Source: Sulfurovum sp. (lineage in GTDB: Bacteria > Campylobacterota > Campylobacteria > Campylobacterales > Sulfurovaceae). Taken from it: a DNA stretch of 32,406 bases. Made by a program: the position numbers and the translations under genes. Location: positions 1-32,406 of the forward strand of contig JAAXPZ010000076.1 in NCBI GenBank assembly GCA_012329065.1. Direction: 5' to 3'. Under the pieces are notes generated by a model. That model was given only the letters and a program-made list of their open reading frames with translations, did not search any database and was not told where the DNA came from. Positions 2,424-31,785 of the stretch are shown here, one piece after another; position 1 is the stretch's first letter, and every line of letters starts with the position of its first letter.

Positions 2424-5243
2424 ATGTCAAAGAAAAAAAGAAAACATTTTATCAAACTGAACAATAAGATACGAGAGCTTTTTGCTTCAATGCCTTTTGA
2501 TGAGGGTTTAGCCACCCTGTCTGATGATGAGCTTTTGGAGCTAGTGCTGCTGCTAGAGCTAGATACACCATCTTTAAATAGAGATGATAGTATTCGTACT
2601 CTGCGTCGAGTCTGGAGTGAGGGGGATTATGGCTATAGAAAAGCTATCGTAGACCATCTTTCAGGCAAAAAAATACTATCTAAGCCCAAAACAAAGCATA
2701 GCCCCAGTAAGCCTATAGATAAAGTAGACAAAATACTAGAGTTATTGCACCCATTAGAGCATAGTAGAGATGAAGAGCATATCATATTGAAAAGCTTTAT
2801 GGGGCTAAGAGCCGCCAAAATCACAGCAGAAAAGATAGAAAGCAAGCTTATGTATATAAGGTTGAGACAACGCATAGATAGCTTACAGGATAGTCTGGGT
2901 GTGGCATTCAATACCAGTAGTATTATGGAGTTTTATTGGCAGTATAGTTTCGATTTTACAAATGAAAGTTTCACTAAAACACTACTCACATATTCACATG
3001 AGTTAGATATAACAGCCCTACTCAAGCAGTCCGATGAGCAGATAAGCGAAGTACTGACAAGCTTAAAGCAAACACTGATAGAGAAGAAGATTCAAGAGAT
3101 AAATGAGTTTATAGTCTTTACTCGTGAACATAGATATATGACAGAGGGGGAGATTTGTCACTCCATGAGACAACTTCCTGTAGAGGGTGACCTGTACCAT
3201 AGTCCGATAGACTATGGAATTATAGAGATGATATTGCATGCTATAGACAAAGATTATTATCTGATAGATAGTGCTGAGCACTTTATAGTAGAAAAAGTAA
3301 GATCCGCCACCTTGTTTGATGTGCAGGTTACATACAGACTATCAGTTTCATATGCCAAAAGCTACACATATGCTACTATCTGGAAAGGTGAAAATTTGCC
3401 TGTACAGGACGATATGCAAAACAAGAATGAAACTACAATAAGTCATTTTCATTCTACAGTTGCTTCTTTAGAAGAAGAGCTTCGTCAGATGTCAGAATAT
3501 TTAAAAGTAGATCAAAAAACTATACAAAAATACATTAAACAATTTCTTGAACCACAACTAGCAAGCTCTGGAAACCTAACAATCAAAGAAAAGAGTCGCA
3601 GAAGAATATTGTATCACTTTTCTGAATACCTAAAGCCTCTCAAGGAACAACACATGAGAGAGGTGCTTCTGGCAAAAACCATTCGTGACTTTAAACAACT
3701 CTTCCCTCTTGCTCGCTCGCTGAAGAGAAAAATAATTTTTCATGCAGGTCCTACAAATAGTGGAAAAACATATACAGCTATGCAAAAACTCTCAGCCTCA
3801 ACCACTGGCTATTATCTAGCTCCATTGAGACTTTTAGCACTGGAAGGATATGAGAGCCTAAAAGAGAGAACTGTGCCCTGCTCTCTTGTTACGGGCGAAG
3901 AGGAGATTATCGATGAGGGATCAACCCATGTCAGCTCCACCATAGAAATGTTAAATCCATCCATAGAGGTAGATGTGTGTGTGATTGATGAGATACAGAT
4001 GATAAACGATAGAGATCGTGGCTGGGCATGGGCAAATGCACTTATTGGTGTGCCAGCAAAAGAAGTGATACTTACTGGTTCAGAAAATACTATATCAGCT
4101 GTCAAACAAATAGCAGAATACCTAGGAGAAGAATTAGAGTTAGTTCACTTTGAGCGTAAAAATCCTCTTGAAATGATGCAGAAACATACTCCAATCAAAC
4201 ATATTGAACCCAAGACGGCCATTGTTGCATTTTCTAGAAAAGAGGTGCTGTCCTATAAGCAGAGGCTCTCTAGTAAATATAAGGTATCCGTCATTTATGG
4301 AAATCTATCTCCAGAAGTTCGTCGTGAAGAGGCTAGAAAATTTAGAGAAGCAGAAAGTGACATTCTGATTGCTACAGATGCTATAGCTATGGGACTTAAT
4401 CTTCCTATTAAAACTCTACTTTTCGCAAGGGGCAACAAATTTGATGGACTGCGACGCAGAGAGCTTACCACTACAGAGGTACTCCAGATTTCTGGTCGTG
4501 CTGGTAGATATGGGATAGAAGAGCATGGTTTTGTGGGTGCATTGGATACAGGTACGCTTCAAACTATTTCAGACCGCTTTCATTCATCCTTACCTGATAT
4601 AGAGCTGCCCTGCTCTATTATGGCTGGCATGGATCATGTGCTACTTATAAGTGAAATATTGGAGACCGAAGACCTACTGGAAATACTTGAGTTTTTTGTA
4701 ACCAATATGGAGTTTGATGGTCCTTTTGTGGCTGCCAACATAGATTCTATGTTAGAAATTGCTACAGTAGTAGGAGAATATGACCTAAGTCTCAAGGATA
4801 AATACCATCTCTCATGTGCTCCTGTCAGCATTCGTTCACCATATATAGAGTCTGTTTTTCATAGATATCTTACTCTTCTTGAAAAAGAGAAAGAAGTATC
4901 ATATATTCCCCCTAGGGATCTTCCATCTTATGCACATACCAATGATGAGCTTCTCAATGCAGAAGACAGAGTCAAGGAGGTATCTCTTTATCTTTGGCTC
5001 TCCTTTAAGTTTGATCTTTTTAAGGAAACTACTGAGGCAATGGAAGCAAGAATAAGGCTCAATCGTTTTATAGAAACTTCGCTGCAAAAAGGTGCGTTTA
5101 CAAAAAAGTGTCACAAGTGTGGTAAGATATTGGACTTTTCATATCGATACTCTATTTGCGAGAGTTGTCACAATAAAGGAAAAAGAGGTGGTAGAGCCAA
5201 AATAGGTACATATAAAAAGAAAAGAAGGAGACAAACAACATAA
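2424..5243 (+). CDS. Suv3-like ATP-dependent RNA helicase
   Basis: A 939-aa superfamily 2 helicase. The conserved core starts near residue 435 with the Walker A motif GPTNSGKT (about 443-450). It continues with DEIQM (about 522-526), an ILTGSE motif III, and GRAGRYG (about 690-697). These signatures, especially the DEIQ box and the NSGKT P-loop, match the Suv3 family known from the mitochondrial RNA degradosome. The first 430 or so residues form a long helical region without a motif I recognise. The tail has two CxxC pairs (CHKC and CESC, about 895-920) that could bind zinc, followed by a very basic end. A role in RNA turnover is inferred from the family. The promoter implies a nearly leaderless transcript; a start at an internal ATG (2490) is the alternative. 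Confidence 0.85.
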   Translation: MSKKKRKHFIKLNNKIRELFASMPFDEGLATLSDDELLELVLLLELDTPSLNRDDSIRTLRRVWSEGDYGYRKAIVDHLSGKKILSKPKTKHSPSKPIDKVDKILELLHPLEHSRDEEHIILKSFMGLRAAKITAEKIESKLMYIRLRQRIDSLQDSLGVAFNTSSIMEFYWQYSFDFTNESFTKTLLTYSHELDITALLKQSDEQISEVLTSLKQTLIEKKIQEINEFIVFTREHRYMTEGEICHSMRQLPVEGDLYHSPIDYGIIEMILHAIDKDYYLIDSAEHFIVEKVRSATLFDVQVTYRLSVSYAKSYTYATIWKGENLPVQDDMQNKNETTISHFHSTVASLEEELRQMSEYLKVDQKTIQKYIKQFLEPQLASSGNLTIKEKSRRRILYHFSEYLKPLKEQHMREVLLAKTIRDFKQLFPLARSLKRKIIFHAGPTNSGKTYTAMQKLSASTTGYYLAPLRLLALEGYESLKERTVPCSLVTGEEEIIDEGSTHVSSTIEMLNPSIEVDVCVIDEIQMINDRDRGWAWANALIGVPAKEVILTGSENTISAVKQIAEYLGEELELVHFERKNPLEMMQKHTPIKHIEPKTAIVAFSRKEVLSYKQRLSSKYKVSVIYGNLSPEVRREEARKFREAESDILIATDAIAMGLNLPIKTLLFARGNKFDGLRRRELTTTEVLQISGRAGRYGIEEHGFVGALDTGTLQTISDRFHSSLPDIELPCSIMAGMDHVLLISEILETEDLLEILEFFVTNMEFDGPFVAANIDSMLEIATVVGEYDLSLKDKYHLSCAPVSIRSPYIESVFHRYLTLLEKEKEVSYIPPRDLPSYAHTNDELLNAEDRVKEVSLYLWLSFKFDLFKETTEAMEARIRLNRFIETSLQKGAFTKKCHKCGKILDFSYRYSICESCHNKGKRGGRAKIGTYKKKRRRQTT

Positions 5244-14819: not shown

Positions 14820-15929
14820 ATGAAAAAGATTATACTATTACTTTCTTTGCTGTCTTTCTTTGCTCTACAGCTTCATGCCAAGAGTGTATTTAAGCGTTAC
14901 CCTATTAAGTCAGGGATGATACTTTATGATATCAATATTACTGGCACCAGTACAGGTCTGACTACACAGACAGTTGGTATATCAAGACTTGTCTTTGATG
15001 ACTGGGGAGCCAAAGAATTGAGAGAAGACGACTATACAGAAGTCCAGCAAGGCGACTTCGACGACAAAAGAACACGCCGCACCATGAGCATGATGGATTA
15101 TGGCACTATATACACAGTAGATTTTGATGAAAATGTCACCTATCAAACTAGGGATAGAAATATTGATATGGCTATTGCTCAGGGTGCTGACATGTCCAAT
15201 GAGAGCCTTGAGATACTCAAAGATATGAATGCAACAAATATAGGTACAGAGACTATAGCAGGATACACTTGTGACATATGGCAGACCAAGGATCAAAGTA
15301 TCTGCATATACAAAGGTATCCCACTTAAAATCACCGTAACTGCCCCTGGGTTTATATCTTCGCGTACCGCACAAGCTGCTATACTTGATAAAGCTATCTC
15401 AAACAGTGAGTTTACTCTACCTGGTTTTGCAGTCATGGTAGATAAGGGCTACACTAGCAATCTTTCAGCCTCTGTCAATACTGCGGACTATATGGCAGCT
15501 ATTGACGACTTGCAACAAAAAATGAAAACCATGGGTGTAAACCTAAATGACGCAAATATCAGCTTAACAAAAGAACAGGAAATAGTAGTAATAAACACTT
15601 TAGGAGCTCGATATCTAGCAAAACAAAAACGATTACTTCCTAAGCTGATGGTAGTTCTAAAGGGAGCTAGAGATTGCATAAATCACTCAGAAAATGCCAA
15701 TGCAGCTTCTGATTGCATCAAGCCAGTAAACAGAATCAGTGAAGAGCTGGGAGACCAGACTTCTCATTATGATTTTAGCAATTGGGACAAGGGTAAAAGA
15801 GAGACAACAGTTAAAGACATAGACAAAGAGATAAAAGATCTAAATGTAACCATAGACTGCGTTAAAAAATACAACAAAACTACAGATGTCATAGAGTGTA
15901 CAGAGGGAAGCTTAGAGCCAAAAATCTAA
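14820..15929 (+). CDS. Secreted protein of unknown function
   Basis: A 369-aa protein with a clear signal peptide (about residues 1-20, ending LHA). I do not recognise the family with confidence. The middle (about 135-175) reads IGTETIAGYTCDIWQTK and then CIYKGIPLKI, which resembles small beta-rich periplasmic domains such as DUF4412. The C-terminal half is mostly helical and has several cysteines (in RDCIN, SDCIKP, IDCVKK and IECTE) that could form disulfides in the periplasm. It has its own likely promoter and lies upstream of the ABC importer operon. No functional link to either neighbour can be shown. Confidence 0.7.
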   Translation: MKKIILLLSLLSFFALQLHAKSVFKRYPIKSGMILYDINITGTSTGLTTQTVGISRLVFDDWGAKELREDDYTEVQQGDFDDKRTRRTMSMMDYGTIYTVDFDENVTYQTRDRNIDMAIAQGADMSNESLEILKDMNATNIGTETIAGYTCDIWQTKDQSICIYKGIPLKITVTAPGFISSRTAQAAILDKAISNSEFTLPGFAVMVDKGYTSNLSASVNTADYMAAIDDLQQKMKTMGVNLNDANISLTKEQEIVVINTLGARYLAKQKRLLPKLMVVLKGARDCINHSENANAASDCIKPVNRISEELGDQTSHYDFSNWDKGKRETTVKDIDKEIKDLNVTIDCVKKYNKTTDVIECTEGSLEPKI

Positions 15930-16003: not shown

Positions 16004-17513
16004 ATGAATATTTTGAAAAAGGCTGTACTGTTGGCAACGGTTGCTATTGTGCCGATAGTATCTGTGCAAGCTGAGGACAAAACCTTAAATGTTGGATTGT
16101 TTTGGATGCCGTCCAATATCGATCCAGCTGTTAAATGGAATGGATGGATGCTGCCAAGAATTGGTATTGGCGAAAACCTTATAAGAGTCAATGAAAAGCT
16201 TGAGTTTGAACCATCTATTGCAAAGTCTTGGAAAATTATAGATGACAAGACAGTCACCTTTGAAATAAGAGATGGTGTAGTTTTTCATGATGGAAAAACT
16301 CTTACGGCTGAAGATGTTAAGAAGTCTATAGAAAGAGCTATAAAAACTACGGGTAGAAAAGATGTCAAGTTCCCACTAGAGTCTATCACTATAGAGGGCA
16401 ATAAAATGACAATAAAAACATCTGAGCCCTTCCCTACTCTTGTAAATGTGCTAGCTGAATCCTGTCTATACCATAGTATCGGGATATAGTGCTGAGGGTT
16501 TTGCAAACAAGCCTATTGCTACAGGCCCGTTTAAAGTAGTCACATATGATGCTAAAAAAGGTGTCTCTCTTGTCAAACATGAAAAGTACTGGCGTGGAAA
16601 AGTTGGGATAGACAAAATCGATGGACTACTTATGAAAGATGGCAGTGCTAGAGCAATGGCCATGCAGTCTGGTGAGCTTCAACTTACAACACAACTATCT
16701 CATGCTGATCTTGAAATGCTTGAAAAGTCAGGCAAGTTCAATGTTCAAAAAGGTCCCAATGTAAGAATTTTCATGGCGAGATTTAACCTTGAGAAGGAAT
16801 ACATGAAAAATCCTGAATTCAGAAAAGCTTTGGTGCATGCCACAAATAAAGATGCTATAGTAAAAGATGTCGTCAAGGGCTTTGTGGCAAAAGGCCCCTT
16901 TCCTCCTACATTTGACTTCGCGTACAAAGGAGAAGAGACATATGGTTACGATGCAGAAAAAGCCAAAAAAATACTCGATGCTGCAAAAATAATAGATGGT
17001 GATGGTGATGGTATCAGAGAATATAATGGCAAGAACATCGTTTTAGAATTCTATGCAAGGACTGGGCATGGAGCAAATGCTAAAAATTCGGGTATTGCTA
17101 TGCAGTCTATGCTAAAAAAAGTCGGTATCGGAATGAAAATCAATCAGGTCAAAAGTTTCGGTGATATACTCAAAAAAGGTGATTACGATATCGTTTGGGA
17201 GAGATGGACAGCTGCTCCTACGCTTGATCCTCTTTATTTCCTTCAGTCATCATTTGGTAAAGATGCAACTGGAAATAGAAGTGGGTACAGTAACCCTGAG
17301 TATAATAAAACAATAATGAACCTCAGAAAAGAGAGTGACAAAACAAAAAGGAATGAACTTGCACAAAAAGCGATTTCTATTCTACTCAACGACGCACCCG
17401 CAATGTTTATCTATCATGGGCTAGGCAGTATTGTAACAAGCAAGAATGTGGATGGCATATATAGATTTCCAACAGAAATCATTTATATCGACCATAGAAC
17501 ACAAATAAAATAG
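16004..17513 (+). pseudogene. Frameshifted nickel/peptide ABC binding protein
   Basis: A periplasmic solute-binding protein of family 5 (NikA/OppA/DppA type). The first part (16004-16489) has a signal peptide ending VQA, then LNVGLFWMPSNIDP, and FEIRDGVVFHDGKTLTAEDV, which is diagnostic for the family. It runs into TAG at 16487-16489. The second part is in the +1 frame and resumes with AEGFANKPIATGPFKVV, continuing to 17513. Joined, the protein would be about 500 aa, the normal size. The shift falls between 16455 and 16489 and needs one base removed (or two added). No long homopolymer or slippery heptamer is there. It may be a true inactivating mutation or an assembly error. Confidence 0.85.
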
Positions 17514-17540
17514 CTTATCGAAATAATCAAGGTGTTACTA

Positions 17541-18305
17541 TTGAGGATAGAGGCTCTTACTGTCGTTGACGACAACAAGAATAAAATCCTAGACAACATC
17601 AATCTTGATGTGCAAGAGGGTTCTATAGTGGCAATTGTTGGAGAGAGTGGAAGTGGCAAAACTACTTTGGCAAATGTTATACTTGGCACCTTGCCAAGTA
17701 TGCTCAAGATTGAATCTGGAACTATAGTTTACAAAAACCATTATCTTGAAGACTTGGATAACAAGGTATATGAGAAGTTATATGGCAGTGAGCTTACTGC
17801 CATCTTTCAAAACCCAAGTTCCTGTCTAAATCCTATCATAAAAATAGGCAAACAATTTGTAGAGACTATATCTTCAAATATATATGTCGACAAGACTAAC
17901 GCGATATCAATAGCCAAAAAAATGCTCAAGAAGACAAATCTTCATAATACAGAAAAAATCCTAGATTCTTATCCTTTTGAACTAAGTAGAGGAATGCTCC
18001 AGAGGGTCAATATCGCTATTATGTTTGCTCTGAATCCTACACTAGTAATCGCTGATGAGCCAACAAGCTCACTAGATGTTTTGTCTCAAAAACAGGTACT
18101 TGATGAGATGCTACATTTAAGTTCTGAGTCCAAAAATACCATGATTATCATCACTCATAGCCTCAGTGTCGCCTCTTATATTGCAGACTCCATAGTGGTT
18201 CTTTGTAAGGGTAATATCGTGGAGTATGGAGCTAAAAATCAAGTGCTTAACTCTCCTCAACATGGCTATACTCAAGAGTTGTTATCTAGTGCAATGTATC
18301 TATAA
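17541..18305 (+). CDS. Nickel/peptide ABC transporter ATPase (NikD/DppD type)
   Basis: First ATPase of the importer, 254 aa. It has Walker A GESGSGKTT, Q-loop IFQNPSS, Walker B LVIADEPTS and a switch histidine in IITHS. The ABC signature reads LSRGML instead of LSGGxQ, with arginine replacing a glycine. It lacks the C-terminal extension seen in many Opp/Dpp ATPases. I prefer the TTG at 17541 because AAGG lies 8 bases upstream; GTG at 17532 overlaps that purine run. It pairs with the ATPase encoded next. Confidence 0.9.
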   Translation: MRIEALTVVDDNKNKILDNINLDVQEGSIVAIVGESGSGKTTLANVILGTLPSMLKIESGTIVYKNHYLEDLDNKVYEKLYGSELTAIFQNPSSCLNPIIKIGKQFVETISSNIYVDKTNAISIAKKMLKKTNLHNTEKILDSYPFELSRGMLQRVNIAIMFALNPTLVIADEPTSSLDVLSQKQVLDEMLHLSSESKNTMIIITHSLSVASYIADSIVVLCKGNIVEYGAKNQVLNSPQHGYTQELLSSAMYL

Positions 18306-18316
18306 AGGCTACTGTT

Positions 18317-19084
18317 GTGATATTGGAAATTGACCGCTTAAGTAAAAGCTTTAACACTGATATCAAAAAAGAGCCTATAAGGGTATTGGACTGTGCAAGC
18401 ATAACTCTAGATGCCAATGAATGGGTAGGGGTTGTGGGTGAGAGCGGATGTGGCAAGAGTACTTTAGCCAAAATTATAATGCAGGCACTCTCCTCCGATA
18501 ATGGTGAGATAAAATTTGATAACAAAAGCATAAAAAACCTAAACAAGCAGGAGCTTCGTAATTACTACAAGGGTGTACAAATGGTATTTCAAGACCCACT
18601 AAGCTCTTTTAGCCCTAGAGTCAAAATAGCAACACATCTTAGTGAAGCTCTGATAAATTTTGGCATATGTAGTAAAAAAAAGAGCCTAAATATGTCCAAA
18701 AAACTTCTTGAGGATGTAGGTCTGAGTGTAGACAAGCTACACAGGTATCCTAGCGAGCTAAGTGGTGGCGAATTACAAAGAGTTGCCATAGCTAGAGCTA
18801 TCAGTGTCAGTCCAAAAATTATCATTTTTGATGAAGCGACATCAGCCTTAGATGTAAGGACAGAAGCTCAAATTATCAAACTTCTGCATGACATGAAGCA
18901 AACTAAAAACTTTTCAGCTATCTTTATCTCTCATAATATTGCACTTGTACACAACATCGCAAGCAGGATATATGTAATGAAAGACGGTAAAATAGTAGAA
19001 GAGTACCTTAGTAAAGACATACACTCTCCAAACAGAAGAGAATATACCAAATTATTGATAGAAGCAGCAAGTTTAAAAATATGA
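18317..19084 (+). CDS. Nickel/peptide ABC transporter ATPase (NikE/DppF type)
   Basis: Second ATPase, 255 aa. It has Walker A GESGCGKST, Q-loop VFQDPLSSFSP, a consensus signature LSGGELQRVAIARA, and Walker B IIIFDEATSALD with ISHN. The GTG start at 18317 is supported by AAAGG 8 bases upstream. The stop overlaps the ATG of the ATP-grasp gene by four bases, so the next gene is probably translated by re-initiating ribosomes. Confidence 0.92.
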   Translation: MILEIDRLSKSFNTDIKKEPIRVLDCASITLDANEWVGVVGESGCGKSTLAKIIMQALSSDNGEIKFDNKSIKNLNKQELRNYYKGVQMVFQDPLSSFSPRVKIATHLSEALINFGICSKKKSLNMSKKLLEDVGLSVDKLHRYPSELSGGELQRVAIARAISVSPKIIIFDEATSALDVRTEAQIIKLLHDMKQTKNFSAIFISHNIALVHNIASRIYVMKDGKIVEEYLSKDIHSPNRREYTKLLIEAASLKI

Positions 19085-19962
19085 AACAACCTATTATAGC
19101 TATACTTGTTAGTAAAAAATATCAAGAGACTCCATATGAGGATGACCTGCTCCTAAAATACAGACTTGAAAGCTTTGGCTATAGTGTGGATATTGTTGAC
19201 TGGAACAGCGATAGATATCATTTTCATCAGGCGATTATTTGCATAGTAAGATCATGTTGGAATTATCATATTTATAAATATGACTATCTTAAAAAGCTAT
19301 TGCTAGTCTCTAGACAATCAATGCTCATCAACACTCATGCCATAATTGAAAAATACTTTAGCAAGCAGTATCTATTAGATACCAATAAACTTGGCATCAA
19401 CACTATACCTACCCGCTTAGCAAAAAACACTGCAGAAGTACTCAGTGCAATCAAGCATCTAAAATCAGATCAAATTATCTTAAAGCCTGATATCAGTGCA
19501 TCTGGCAACAATACATACAAAATAGACTCTTGTAATAAACAGAAAATCATAGAAAAATCTAAAGTCATACTGTCTAGCGGAAAAGTAATCGTGCAGGACT
19601 ATATCGATACCGTTATAACTCACGGTGAACTCTCCACGGTAGTTATCGCTGGCAAGATAACCTTTACTATGCACAAGAGACCAGCCTCTCACTGCTTTCT
19701 TGTGCATGAACACCATGGTGGGTGCTATACTCCTACAAAAATAGATGAAAAATGCACAAGCTTCGTTTATAGTGTATTGGGATTATTTGAAAACATACCC
19801 ACTTACACAAGAATAGACTATCTCATAAGTGAAGATGGAAATCCAATATTACTAGAACTGGAAGTAAATGAACCAAATCTATATCTATCAAAAAGTGAAG
19901 AGACGCTAAATAGTCTCTGCCAAGAAATACACAATATTTCCAATCTAAGGGTGCAAAAGTGA
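19081..19962 (+). CDS. DcsG-like ATP-grasp ligase in the importer operon
   Basis: A 293-aa ATP-grasp enzyme, a family that joins a carboxylate to an amine through an acyl phosphate. VRSCWNYH (about 58-65) and the later KQYLLDTNKLGINTIPT match the N-terminal part of the DcsG (O-ureido-D-serine cyclo-ligase)-like group. Lys135 in KPDISASGNN is the likely ATP-binding lysine. Asp246 in RIDYL, Glu259, Glu261 and Asn263-Glu264 fit the Mg-ATP site. No transmembrane segment or signal peptide is present. Both ends overlap neighbours by four bases (ATGA with the ATPase gene, GTGA with the permease gene), so it belongs to the transporter operon. Its substrate is unknown. It could build or modify a small ligand that the importer carries. 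Confidence 0.8.
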   Translation: MKQPIIAILVSKKYQETPYEDDLLLKYRLESFGYSVDIVDWNSDRYHFHQAIICIVRSCWNYHIYKYDYLKKLLLVSRQSMLINTHAIIEKYFSKQYLLDTNKLGINTIPTRLAKNTAEVLSAIKHLKSDQIILKPDISASGNNTYKIDSCNKQKIIEKSKVILSSGKVIVQDYIDTVITHGELSTVVIAGKITFTMHKRPASHCFLVHEHHGGCYTPTKIDEKCTSFVYSVLGLFENIPTYTRIDYLISEDGNPILLELEVNEPNLYLSKSEETLNSLCQEIHNISNLRVQK

Positions 19963-20906
19963 AAACAGTCCTCATGGAAATATCTAGATTGCTACTTGTA
20001 CTTTTTATAGCTACTTTTGCTACTTTTGCCATGCTTTATACTGAGTCTGACACCGTAGCAGAAGATATTCTTGTGATGCAAGATCTTATACCGACCAAAG
20101 AAGCTATAGAAGGGATAAAAAAGGAGTATGGACTAGATAAGCCATTTGTACTACAGTATGCCAACTGGATACAAGGTGTGACGAAAGGAGAACTTGGATA
20201 CTCCCATAGTCTAGACAAGCCTGTGCTAGATGAGTTTGTGCATAGACTGCCAAACACACTGATACTGACTGGCTATTCTACAGCTTTTATCCTAATTTTT
20301 TCTCTGCTATTTGGTCTGCTTGGTGCTATGCATAAAAATAAGTTTATTGATAAGATTATTGCCCTCTTCTCTTCTTTTGCTATTGCTATGCCAGCATTTT
20401 GGATTGGGCTAATACTTATAGTTATATTTATAGTTAAACTAAGATTTTTTGAGCTTACCAATATGAATAATCCTAAAAATATGCTTCTTCCTGCTATATC
20501 TTTGGCACTGCCGTTGATTGGGCGATATGCTATGCTTATTAGAGCATCTATGCTAGATCAAGTATCAGCCAACTATGTTACAAGTGCAAGAACAAGAGGC
20601 ATACCACAACGAAATATAATACTAAGACATATACTACCAAATGCTATTGTCTCTATACTTCCACTTTTGGGGATAAGCATAGGTGCGATTCTAGGAGGAA
20701 CTGTGATTATCGAGACTGTATTTGGTATCCATGGTATAGGTAGCATGGTGATTTCTGGTATAAATCACAGTGATTATCCCCTGATTCAGTCATTTGTATT
20801 ATTTATGACTACTGTCTATATAGCTATTAGCTTTGCTGTTGATTGGCTCTGTAAACTTATAGATCCTAGATTAAGACACAAAAATAGCACAAGGATCGAA
20901 ATATGA
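19959..20906 (+). CDS. Nickel/peptide ABC transporter permease (NikB/DppB type)
   Basis: A 315-aa inner-membrane permease with about six membrane helices and the ABC-coupling EAA loop TSARTRGIPQRNIILRHILP. The N-terminal region, with a large periplasmic segment after the first helix, is typical of DppB/NikB. The GTG start overlaps the stop of the ATP-grasp gene, and the stop overlaps the start of the second permease gene. Confidence 0.92.
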   Translation: MKTVLMEISRLLLVLFIATFATFAMLYTESDTVAEDILVMQDLIPTKEAIEGIKKEYGLDKPFVLQYANWIQGVTKGELGYSHSLDKPVLDEFVHRLPNTLILTGYSTAFILIFSLLFGLLGAMHKNKFIDKIIALFSSFAIAMPAFWIGLILIVIFIVKLRFFELTNMNNPKNMLLPAISLALPLIGRYAMLIRASMLDQVSANYVTSARTRGIPQRNIILRHILPNAIVSILPLLGISIGAILGGTVIIETVFGIHGIGSMVISGINHSDYPLIQSFVLFMTTVYIAISFAVDWLCKLIDPRLRHKNSTRIEI

Positions 20907-21682
20907 AAAAACTCTATATATTGATATCCATTTCTATTTTTTTGATTCTACTCTCTATCGTAGCACCATATCTTGCACCCAACGATCCTCTTGAGATAGA
21001 CTTTAGCAGGATATTGGCTCCACCTGATGAAATATATTGGCTAGGTGGAGATCATCTAGGTAGATATATTTTCTCAAGACTTCTGCATGGAGCTAGGGCT
21101 ACGCTGGCAACAGCTTTTTTGATGATAGCTGGCATGAGCATCTTGGGCATCATCATGGGTGCAGTAGCTGGATTTAGAGGTGGGGCAAGTGATACTCTCA
21201 TAATGAGAATTGGGGATATGCTCTTGGCGTTTCCTGAGATAGTTTTTGTGATAGTGGTAGTTGGCATGCTCGGAGTTGGTATATTCAACACCATCATAGC
21301 ACTATCTTTGATATGGTGGGTAAAGTACTCTAGGATTACTAGAGTGCTAGTAAAAAAAGAGTTGAGTAATAACTATATCCATGCAGCTAGAATGTCAGGT
21401 GCAAGCGACACAAGGATACTAATCCGCTATATCATGCCTGTTCTAATCGTACAGGTATGCCTAAATATAGGCACTATTATTATAGCATTAGCTGGCTTTT
21501 CATTTTTAGGACTAGGCGTACAGCCTCCCGCTCCTGAGTGGGGCAATATGCTTAGCGAATCTAGAATATATATACAGACAGCTCCACACCTGATGATATA
21601 TCCAGGATTAGCGATATTTTTAGTGGTTGTTTTGTTTAATTATTTTGGCGAAACACTTAGGGATATGCTTACAGCAAAATAA
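20903..21682 (+). CDS. Nickel/peptide ABC transporter permease (NikC/DppC type)
   Basis: Second permease, 259 aa, with LAPNDPLEIDF and GGDHLGRYIFSRLLHGAR at the start as in DppC/NikC. Helices and the EAA loop YIHAARMSGASDTRILIRY follow. It closes the operon; valS follows after 130 bases with its own promoter. Whether the substrate is nickel chelate, peptide or something else cannot be told from the permeases. Confidence 0.92.
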   Translation: MKKLYILISISIFLILLSIVAPYLAPNDPLEIDFSRILAPPDEIYWLGGDHLGRYIFSRLLHGARATLATAFLMIAGMSILGIIMGAVAGFRGGASDTLIMRIGDMLLAFPEIVFVIVVVGMLGVGIFNTIIALSLIWWVKYSRITRVLVKKELSNNYIHAARMSGASDTRILIRYIMPVLIVQVCLNIGTIIIALAGFSFLGLGVQPPAPEWGNMLSESRIYIQTAPHLMIYPGLAIFLVVVLFNYFGETLRDMLTAK

Positions 21683-21749
21683 CAACAATCCTAGCAGCAA
21701 TCCATTGCTATCTAGACTATAGATTTATAGAAAATCAGCACCTTTCTGC

Positions 21750-21755
21750 TATAAT
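21750..21755 (+). promoter_or_regulatory. Extended -10 box for valS
   Basis: TATAAT preceded by TGC, 57 bases before the valS start. It is the best promoter candidate in the 130-base gap after the importer operon. Confidence 0.5.
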
Positions 21756-21812
21756 CGCGACAATATATCAAGGGTACCACTAATAATAGTTATCCTAAAC
21801 AGCGAGGCATAA

Positions 21813-28500: not shown

Positions 28501-28529
28501 AAAGGGTACCCACAAAGGGGCACCCCTAC
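28501..28529 (-). repeat. 29-bp palindromic element, copy at hsdR end
   Basis: Read on the minus strand: GTAG, then stem GGGTGCCC, loop CTTTGT, stem GGGTACCC, then TTT. One G-U pair lies in the 8-bp stem. The TAG in its first four bases is the stop codon of hsdR (28526-28528). The hairpin plus TTT could terminate hsdR transcription. Confidence 0.75.
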
Positions 28530-31459
28530 TCTTTCCCATACCTCACCTTAGGCTCCGCAGCCATAAGCATCTCATCTTCACTATTGCCTATCTGTCCTTC
28601 ATCATTGACATAGGCACCAGCATCAGAACCAAACCCGCTTCCGTCATAAAACTTCTCTACAAAAGCCACTACTTTTTCTAACACTCTTGGCACTACTCTT
28701 TTTCGTTCTAGTAATTTGGGCTTCACTGTAAGTGTTTTGGCTATGTCGTCGTTGAGTGGTTTTCTTTGGTCATATATATAGGTGTCTATGACCTTTCGTA
28801 TCTTCCTCTCATCTAGCTTCTCGTCTTCACATATCTGCGTAAATGCCTTGTCTTTTTGCTCATCCCAGTACTTCTCAAAGGCTTCGTCTACAAGGTCTGC
28901 GTCGCTTATGTCTTGCAAGTACCCATCTATAAACTGTTCTATGAGTTCTTTTTTACTTCGTAGTTGTGGGTTGTTGTTGATGATGTTTGAGATGTTCTGC
29001 TTTTGCTTCGCTTTCTCTTCTTCTGGTGCGTCTATGAGTTTGGCTAGCAGTCTGAGTATGTAGCTTACATTTATCTCGTCTTTTTGTATGAGTTCTAGCT
29101 CAAAATCCACATCGTCTAGTATGGAAACTTTTTCTACTTCTGTACGTGCAGGTTTCATGTCTAGGTACTTGCTCGTGTAGTCGGCAAACTCTTGCTCGCT
29201 CATGCCTGTCTGGGAGAAGTCAAACTCTGCAAAAGACTCCAACACATTTTTCACACGCATCAAGGCTCTAAATGCCTGTACAAATGCCAACTTCTCTTCC
29301 TCTCCATACAAGTCATTTACACTGTCCACTGTAGGCACTAGCTCTTTTAGATGCTCCAATGCCTCTGTAAACTTGTCTAGGTAGTCTTCATACGGTTCCA
29401 TGAGTATGGTATCTATGGCATCTTTGTTAGAAAACAGCGTGATGGCTTCGTCTGTAGCATTCTTCAAGTTTCTAAAACTGACGATATTCCCCTGACTCTT
29501 TTTTTCGTCTAGTATTCTGTTGGTGCGTGAAAACGCTTGTATCAGCCCATGGTAGCATAGGTTTTTGTCTACGTACAATGTGTTTAGAGGCTTGCTGTCA
29601 AAGCCTGTCAAGAACATATTGACCACCAAAAGTATGTCTATCTCTTTTCTTTTGACTCTTTGGCTGATGTTGTTGTAGTAGTTGTAGTAAGACTGTGAGT
29701 CTTTGGTGCTGTATGCTGTGCCGTACATGCTGTTGTAGTCGCTTATGAACTCGTCTAGCTTCTCACGGCTGTGTTTGTTGATGTGGGCTTCGTCTACAGA
29801 TGCACCGTCGCCCTCGTCTAGGCTTGTCATACCTGTGGCATCTTTGTCGTCTTCATTGGCTGAGTAGCTAAAGATGGTGGCTATTTTGAGTCTATGCTTC
29901 CCTGCTTCTTTCTTCTGTCTAAACATCTCATAGTACTTGATGAGCATATCGACAGACCCCACCGCCATCATGGCTGTAAAGGTTTTGCTATGCGTCTTTC
30001 GTGCATGGTTGGCTATGATGTAGTCTGTGATTTTGTCTAGTCTGTCTTCACTTTCTAGTAGCTCTTTGGTGTCAATGGCTTCAACATCTATGTCTAAGCT
30101 GTTCACACCCTCTTTTTCTTTATATCTGCCCACATACTCTATGCTAAACTTCAGTACATTTTCGTCGTTTATGGCATCGGTGATGACATACTTGTGCAAA
30201 GCAGGAGAAGAAAAAAGGTCTGCTGTGGTGCGTTTGCCTATGGCATTTTCAGCAAAGATGGGTGTGCCTGTAAAACCTATCATCTGGTTGTTGGTAAAAA
30301 ACTTGTTTATCTTTGTATGTGTTTCGCCAAACTGGCTTCTATGACACTCGTCAAATATAAACACCACCCTAGCCTCTCTCAACTTTTCCATACTTGAGAG
30401 GTACTTAGGCTTGCTTATGGCGGTGTTGAGTTTTTGTATGGTAGTCACGATGAGAGGTGTGTCATCTCCAAACTGCTTGACCAAGGCTTTCGTGTTGTCC
30501 GTACCGTCTACTGAGCCGTCTGAAAAGCTGTTAAACTCCTTGGTCGTCTGAAAGTCCAGGTCTTTTCTGTCTACCACAAAGATAACTTTGTCCACAGAGG
30601 GCATATCCATGAGTATCTGTGCTGTCTTAAATGATGTGAGCGTTTTACCGCTTCCTGTGGTGTGCCAGATGTAGCCGTTTTTGCTAGAGTTCTCTACCCT
30701 GTCTACTATGGCTTCGGTGGCATGGTACTGGTAGGGGCGTAAGACCATGAGTATCTTGGGTACAACTGCTAGCACGATGTACTTGCATATCATCTTCGAG
30801 AGGTGGCACTTTTCTAAAAACACTTCAGCAAAGGCTTCGAGGTTTGTGATGTTCTTGTTCTCTTTGTCTGCCCAGTAAAAGGTCTGTTTCATGCTCATAG
30901 ACTCTAGTCTGGAGTTGGCGTAGTACTTGGTGTTTACGCCGTTACTTATGACAAAGAGTTGCACGTACCCAAAGAGTCCTTTGCCATGTGAGAGTGTGTG
31001 TCTTTTGTAGCGTAGCGTCTGGTTAAAGGCTTCTTTGAGTTCTAGCCCTCTGCGTTTGAGTTCTACCTGTACGAGGGGTAGCCCGTTGATGAGTATGGTC
31101 ACATCATAACGGTTTTTGTACGTACCTTCCATGGTCACTTGGCTCGTCACTTGAAAGCGGTTCTGACACCAATGCACCGAGTCCAAAAATCTCACATAAA
31201 ACTGAGACCCATCATCACGCTGTAGCACAAACTTATCACGAAGTGTCTTCGCTTTCTCAAAGATGTTGCCTTTACCTAAGAAGTTCATCACCTTTTTAAA
31301 CTCATCATCGCTAAAGCTAGTGTGGTTGTGTTTTTCTAGCTGTGTTTTGAGGTTTGCCACCAAGGCATCTTCATCAGGTATGGCTACACTTTCGTAGCCG
31401 TCTTTTGAGAGTTGTACGAGTAGGTTTTCTTCTAAGATTGCTTCGCTTTGTATGCTCAT
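28526..31459 (-). CDS. hsdR: Type I restriction enzyme R subunit (HsdR)
   Basis: Motor and nuclease subunit of a type I restriction-modification system, 977 aa. The N-terminal nuclease (about 115-135) has YDVTILINGLP followed by QVELKRRG, the PD-(D/E)xK arrangement. The SF2 motor has HTTGSGKT at 266-273, DECH at 370-373 and GFTGTP shortly after. A helical C-terminal region assembles the subunit with HsdM and HsdS in this family. Its ATG overlaps the toxin stop by four bases. Its stop TAG lies in a palindromic repeat. HsdS is at the right edge and hsdM is presumably beyond it. Confidence 0.95.
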   Translation of the reverse strand: MSIQSEAILEENLLVQLSKDGYESVAIPDEDALVANLKTQLEKHNHTSFSDDEFKKVMNFLGKGNIFEKAKTLRDKFVLQRDDGSQFYVRFLDSVHWCQNRFQVTSQVTMEGTYKNRYDVTILINGLPLVQVELKRRGLELKEAFNQTLRYKRHTLSHGKGLFGYVQLFVISNGVNTKYYANSRLESMSMKQTFYWADKENKNITNLEAFAEVFLEKCHLSKMICKYIVLAVVPKILMVLRPYQYHATEAIVDRVENSSKNGYIWHTTGSGKTLTSFKTAQILMDMPSVDKVIFVVDRKDLDFQTTKEFNSFSDGSVDGTDNTKALVKQFGDDTPLIVTTIQKLNTAISKPKYLSSMEKLREARVVFIFDECHRSQFGETHTKINKFFTNNQMIGFTGTPIFAENAIGKRTTADLFSSPALHKYVITDAINDENVLKFSIEYVGRYKEKEGVNSLDIDVEAIDTKELLESEDRLDKITDYIIANHARKTHSKTFTAMMAVGSVDMLIKYYEMFRQKKEAGKHRLKIATIFSYSANEDDKDATGMTSLDEGDGASVDEAHINKHSREKLDEFISDYNSMYGTAYSTKDSQSYYNYYNNISQRVKRKEIDILLVVNMFLTGFDSKPLNTLYVDKNLCYHGLIQAFSRTNRILDEKKSQGNIVSFRNLKNATDEAITLFSNKDAIDTILMEPYEDYLDKFTEALEHLKELVPTVDSVNDLYGEEEKLAFVQAFRALMRVKNVLESFAEFDFSQTGMSEQEFADYTSKYLDMKPARTEVEKVSILDDVDFELELIQKDEINVSYILRLLAKLIDAPEEEKAKQKQNISNIINNNPQLRSKKELIEQFIDGYLQDISDADLVDEAFEKYWDEQKDKAFTQICEDEKLDERKIRKVIDTYIYDQRKPLNDDIAKTLTVKPKLLERKRVVPRVLEKVVAFVEKFYDGSGFGSDAGAYVNDEGQIGNSEDEMLMAAEPKVRYGKE

Positions 31460-31785
31460 AGGTTTTCTACCTTCTCCAGTAGTGGCTTTAGTTTAGACAT
31501 ATCTATGTTTTCTTTTTGTGTCTTGGAGTACATGGTTATCAAGTAGACTTTGTCCTGTGATGTTTTAGTATAGTACACGACTCTATAGCCACCACTATTG
31601 CCACCTGTATCAGAATTTTTCACTCTAATTTTATAAAGATTATTACCCAAATGTATACCGATGTCGAATGCTATTTCAAGTTTTTCTACGAGTTCGAGTA
31701 TATCGTCTTTTATGTGTCTGTATTTTTTATGGAGTTTCTTAACATCTCTCTGAAACTCCTCTAAGGCAATGACCTCATAGTTCAT
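31456..31785 (-). CDS. RelE/ParE-superfamily toxin
   Basis: A 109-aa protein of the RelE fold, which typically cleaves mRNA on the ribosome. LEEFQRDVKKLHKKY is the N-terminal helix, NNLYKIRVKNSD the central strands with basic residues, and GGYRVVYYTK plus DKVYLITMYSKTQKENI the C-terminal strands. It overlaps the upstream antitoxin gene by 11 bases and hsdR by four bases, so the toxin is translationally tied to both. This places a toxin-antitoxin module inside a restriction operon. Confidence 0.88.
   Translation of the reverse strand: MNYEVIALEEFQRDVKKLHKKYRHIKDDILELVEKLEIAFDIGIHLGNNLYKIRVKNSDTGGNSGGYRVVYYTKTSQDKVYLITMYSKTQKENIDMSKLKPLLEKVENL

Follow-up and report, generated by a model that had tools for sequence, protein, structure and literature searches.

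ABC importers for nickel and cobalt of the NikABCDE, NikZYXWV and Opp types consist of a substrate-binding protein (SBP), two permeases and two ATPases. Importers of metal complexes are known alongside reductases, esterases or chelator-synthesis genes. In the cnt systems, which serve staphylopine and related opine metallophores, a small-molecule enzyme adjoins an Opp-family metal importer, and the genes for chelator synthesis lie beside the cognate importer. The Sulfurovum sp. locus described here belongs to a stretch of 32,406 nucleotides, which as a whole is referred to as the window. It shares the five importer parts with the NikABCDE-type systems and, like the cnt systems, combines an importer of the Opp family with an enzyme for small molecules. 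In contrast to the NikABCDE-type importers, an ATP-grasp ligase is encoded within the operon, giving the gene order A-D-E-ligase-B-C. Where cnt has a nicotianamine-synthase-like enzyme and an opine dehydrogenase, the locus has this ligase instead; neither of the two families was present among the window proteins scanned, and an exporter was not seen in the window.

All genes of the run are on the + strand. The SBP gene, counted here as an importer part though it is frameshifted, is followed by genes for a NikD-like ATPase (17532..18305), a NikE-like ATPase (18317..19084), the DcsG-like ATP-grasp ligase (19081..19962), a NikB-like permease (19959..20906) and a NikC-like permease (20903..21682). 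A preliminary description of this DNA had placed the ATP-grasp gene between NikDE-like and NikBC-like genes, with four-base overlaps on both sides. Inspection of the sequence bore out both points. The open reading frame 19081-19962 is intact; ATGA at 19081-19084 contains the stop codon of the NikE-like gene and the ATP-grasp start codon, and GTGA at 19959-19962 contains the ATP-grasp stop and the NikB start. The NikB and NikC genes likewise overlap by four bases (ATGA, 20903-20906). Elsewhere in the window, a gene at 2424-5243 encodes a helicase of 939 residues; its SUV3-type domains mark a family that is more familiar from mitochondria. A type I restriction subunit R gene (28526-31785), overlapped by a RelE-like ORF by four bases, has a third-position G+C content of 0.52 as compared to about 0.3-0.4 in the other measured genes.

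Pfam and NCBIfam searches assigned the importer to the Opp/Nik family, and nickel models ranked first or near the top for each subunit. The best NCBIfam models were nickel_nikD (232 bits, cut-off 319) and nickel_nikE (212 bits, cut-off 333) for the two ABC_tran ATPases, Opp2B (299 bits, cut-off 350) for the NikB-like BPD_transp_1 permease and nickel_nikC (281 bits, cut-off 358) for the NikC-like protein. Models of CntD and CntF were among the best matches of the ATPases. With the nickel NikB model, the NikB-like protein reached 261 bits (cut-off 447). The NikD-, NikE-, NikB- and NikC-like subunits thus all stay below the curated nickel equivalog cut-offs, which sets them apart from the NikABCDE-type importers, and none of the importer proteins scores to the cut-off of a metal-specific model.

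The first gene of the run, starting at 16004, is broken by a frameshift that had been missed in the preliminary description. Both the shortened N-terminal part of the SBP (16004..16489) and the C-terminal part (16632..17513) matched Opp5A_nikA below its cut-off, with E-values of 4e-30 and 8e-39, respectively. Frame translations and two overlapping frame matches of an intact clostridial SBP (locus L175, 3657-5216) place the break at approximately 16449..16460, the second frame being open from about 16450 to 17513. The N-terminal part is 51% identical to residues 40-168 of the L175 protein and the C-terminal part 49% identical to it. The frameshift is either a true mutation or an error of this assembly. 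By sequence, the SBP is nearest to nickel-binding proteins, and its closest solved relatives, SaNikA included, are annotated as nickel-binding.

The ATP-grasp protein was assigned to the DcsG family of NCBIfam (NF058666, E 3e-26) as its best family with 92 bits, about one quarter of the curated cut-off of 360 bits. The best PDB match by sequence was DcsG, the D-cycloserine synthetase (6jil, E 6e-13). AlphaFold2 gave a confident model of the ATP-grasp fold (pLDDT 96.4), which again matched DcsG best in the PDB, with a TM score of 0.86 and 20% sequence identity over the structural alignment; LysX/ArgX and RimK ligases came next. Almost every near-invariant family residue is present. It is very likely that the window enzyme is active as a carboxylate-amine ligase. 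The substrate loop has a signature of its own. Leu207, His209 and His211 occur in 8/8 members of the Nik-linked clade (FLVHxHxGG), whereas the positions are mostly Arg, Gln and Glu in stand-alone relatives and Arg, Ala and Asp in DcsG in this alignment. Comparison of the substrate pocket with that of DcsG, a check proposed earlier, was made by sequence motif and fold score. The name DcsG-like given in the preliminary description is appropriate for the fold and for the nearest named family, but it does not extend to the substrate, which would differ from that of DcsG. Other cycloserine-synthesis genes were not found among the window proteins scanned.

In three genomes of the same genus (G001, G002 and G003), the upstream gene (14820-15929 in the window) and valS are adjacent with a gap of about 90-120 bp. 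The window carries the segment 15930..21735 at this otherwise empty site, between the upstream gene and the valS promoter region, and has retained a valS promoter-like sequence at about 21739-21760. In a set of 387 genomes from the phylum, the SBP subfamily was confined to the window genome, and none of 119 relatives carries a close relative of the window ligase. The empty site in same-genus genomes together with the absence of the SBP subfamily from the rest of the phylum indicates that the cassette is a horizontally acquired segment of about 5.8 kb. These two observations carry the claim, because the base composition of the cassette is unremarkable compared with its surroundings. A survey had been expected to find the ligase in NikDE/NikBC operons across Campylobacterota; this genome turned out to be the sole case in the sample, by way of horizontal transfer. 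Transfer as such has a precedent in this phylum, where Helicobacter is known to have gained nickel importers horizontally (PMC5140060); the novelty lies in the ligase gene within the operon. Replacement of a native nickel importer by the cassette was considered and dropped. Importers of the same genus, with about 42% NikC identity, initially looked like native Nik-type systems; the SBP of the one inspected (L070) looks by eye like the dipeptide type, and its gene adjoins an epimerase-like gene.

A contig search with the single window ligase sequence returned zero relatives, and an alignment of 18 sequences was too divergent as a query; relatives in other genomes were found with a three-sequence ligase alignment. 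The nearest ones belong to the clostridial order containing Alkaliphilus and to one Bipolaricaulota contig (L076) with a run of N immediately before the ligase. This contig may be chimeric, so that its taxonomy carries no weight. In the ligase family tree, the window enzyme and these nearest relatives form one clade (100/99). In genome G557 (L175), a co-directional ligase-B-C-A-D-E cluster opens with the ligase gene; the SBP of this cluster shares 49% and its NikC 51% identity with the window counterparts. In G464 (L177), the ligase gene and the B-C-A-D-E genes point away from each other, about 520 bp apart. A concatenated importer tree joined the window, L175 and L177 (91/90), and six ligase-free members of the subfamily were placed apart (100/98). 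This grouping, which gives moderate support, suggests that the ligase-bearing importers are probably of one origin and that the ligase was kept through a change in gene order and a move between phyla. Six loci of the ligase clade had usable flanks; at three of them (G459, G487 and G628), the ligase is not beside an importer of this subfamily, though the G459 contig ends about 1 kb upstream. In G628, the clade member adjoins genes for an MntR/DtxR-like regulator and a FeoB-like protein. In the region L174:3894-12154, genes of these two kinds accompany a ligase-clade member together with an LCM-type methyltransferase gene and two genes for fused-domain ABC transporters, which by eye resemble a siderophore-type pair.

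A phylum-wide search with the DcsG model detected the family in 18/397 genomes. Apart from the window and a broken fragment in G106, all intact Campylobacterota copies (16/16) terminate a FecBCD-type importer operon, which is composed of genes for a FecB-type SBP, a FecCD-type permease, an ATPase and mostly a pseudoazurin-like protein, followed by the ligase. The coupling of ligase and importer proposed in the preliminary description recurs with the same importer subfamily in Clostridia and, independently, with FecBCD-type importers in these copies. Like the window, the FecBCD-pseudoazurin operons tie a DcsG-like ligase to a metal-chelate-type ABC importer. They differ in importer class, in the loop, which is of the RANS type, and in the ligase, which forms a separate clade in the tree (100/94). 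The arrangement was seen in 16 Campylobacterota genomes and on a plasmid of Vibrio coralliilyticus (L051-L066, L075), and no description of it was met in the open literature searched. It is possibly a copper-ligand system. A fragment of a TonB-dependent receptor (L051:14292-15302) lies a few kb from one of these operons; the model nearest to it is the copper-receptor model TIGR01778 (163 bits, cut-off 472). Weak ATP-grasp matches in G017 and G106 (L067, L068) showed no importer association, and the G106 match has two stops.

From 482 relatives in other genomes, 80 loci were kept, and none of them has such a FecBCD-type importer beside the ligase gene. Relatives sampled in other phyla are mostly stand-alone genes. 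They had no recurrent functional neighbour; the neighbours that did recur are mostly common to Alteromonadales and suggest no function. With one Nik-linked and one separate FecBCD-linked clade, a mostly stand-alone ligase family thus seems to have been tied at least twice to metal-chelate-type importers.

Genes beside related importers bear on the role of the ligase. Ligase-free clostridial members of the importer subfamily are accompanied by a GNAT acetyltransferase (L202-L205) and, in the same neighbourhood, by a MATE exporter that adjoins permease B (L199, L202-L205); the same MATE gene is also near the L175 cluster. AstE-type deacylase genes are located near the related importers L200, L201 and L209. 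The host genome encodes [NiFe] hydrogenases, and a urease alpha subunit was not found in it. Nickel or cobalt is tentatively favoured as the metal because of the nearest solved relatives of the SBP and the hydrogenases of the host.

The enzyme most likely modifies or makes a small ligand handled by the importer. That the two constitute one functional module is well supported, the translational-coupling overlaps at both ends of the ligase gene counting in its favour. The best explanation overall, which we put forward tentatively, is an acquired Nik-type cassette with its own cytoplasmic ATP-grasp ligase, ligase and importer acting on the same small ligand. Whether this ligand is a metal chelate is an evenly balanced question. 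The binding protein would capture a small compound, most probably a metal-ligand complex, which NikBCDE would carry into the cell. There, the ATP-grasp enzyme would use ATP to activate a carboxylate group on the ligand and couple it to an amine, thereby capping a metal-binding group. The capped ligand may then let go of the metal, and the spent ligand would be used or expelled. In a scheme shared with the ligase-free importers, the metal-binding group would be altered either by acetylation of an amine (GNAT) or by amide formation at a carboxylate (ATP-grasp), and the ligand could leave through the MATE exporter once the metal is freed. Modification and expulsion of the ligand fit the GNAT and MATE genes beside related importers. 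That capping takes place after import rather than before export is a somewhat doubtful part of this explanation, favoured because ligase-free importer relatives carry an acetyltransferase and a MATE exporter. Counted against the best explanation are the ligase-clade loci away from this importer subfamily, the SBP frameshift, the sub-threshold scores with metal models and the lack of an exporter in the window.

Alternatively, the ligase might synthesize a metallophore, an amide or dipeptide-like chelator made from common metabolites, which is exported, binds nickel or cobalt and is re-imported as a complex. Such a role is possible, if on the unlikely side. It has a precedent in the opine metallophores, one ATP-grasp ligase could link two amino acids, and the product could leave through the MATE protein encoded near related importers. 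However, a further biosynthetic gene or exporter is absent from the window and from the FecBCD operons read, and at most loci MATE accompanies GNAT and not the ligase. If the ligand is instead altered once inside the cell, the genes accompanying related importers are accounted for no less well. Slightly less probable is the import of a metal-free peptide-, opine- or amino-acid-like compound, which the ligase or acetyltransferase would convert for use or detoxification. SBPs of the Opp/Dpp family bind many such ligands, and the low nickel-model scores and the AstE-type deacylase genes point in the same direction; the nickel-binding annotation of the nearest solved SBP relatives and the link of the other ligase clade to a siderophore-type importer with pseudoazurin argue against it. 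Coincidence, by which the ligase gene landed in the operon with no functional tie to the importer, is very improbable: relatives elsewhere mostly stand alone and only one genome of the phylum has the Nik arrangement, but the four-base overlaps, the pairing of the same ligase clade with the same importer subfamily, differently ordered, in a second phylum, and the independent linkage of a second clade to FecBCD importers (16/16) all contradict it.

In the open literature searched, most subscription papers lying outside it, there was no report of a link between ATP-grasp enzymes and nickel importers, metallophores or pseudoazurin. We tentatively propose that metal-chelate importers of the Nik and FecBCD types repeatedly have a DcsG-like ATP-grasp ligase as a so far undescribed partner. 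The ligase would synthesize or cap a small chelator as part of a metal uptake cycle coupled to it. The pairs of enzyme and binding protein would offer a route to new nickel, cobalt or copper ligands. The importer-attached ligase family suggests an undescribed step in the bacterial handling of imported metal-binding molecules, and two ligase clades on two unrelated importer classes would indicate that this is a general chemical step in metal-chelator handling.
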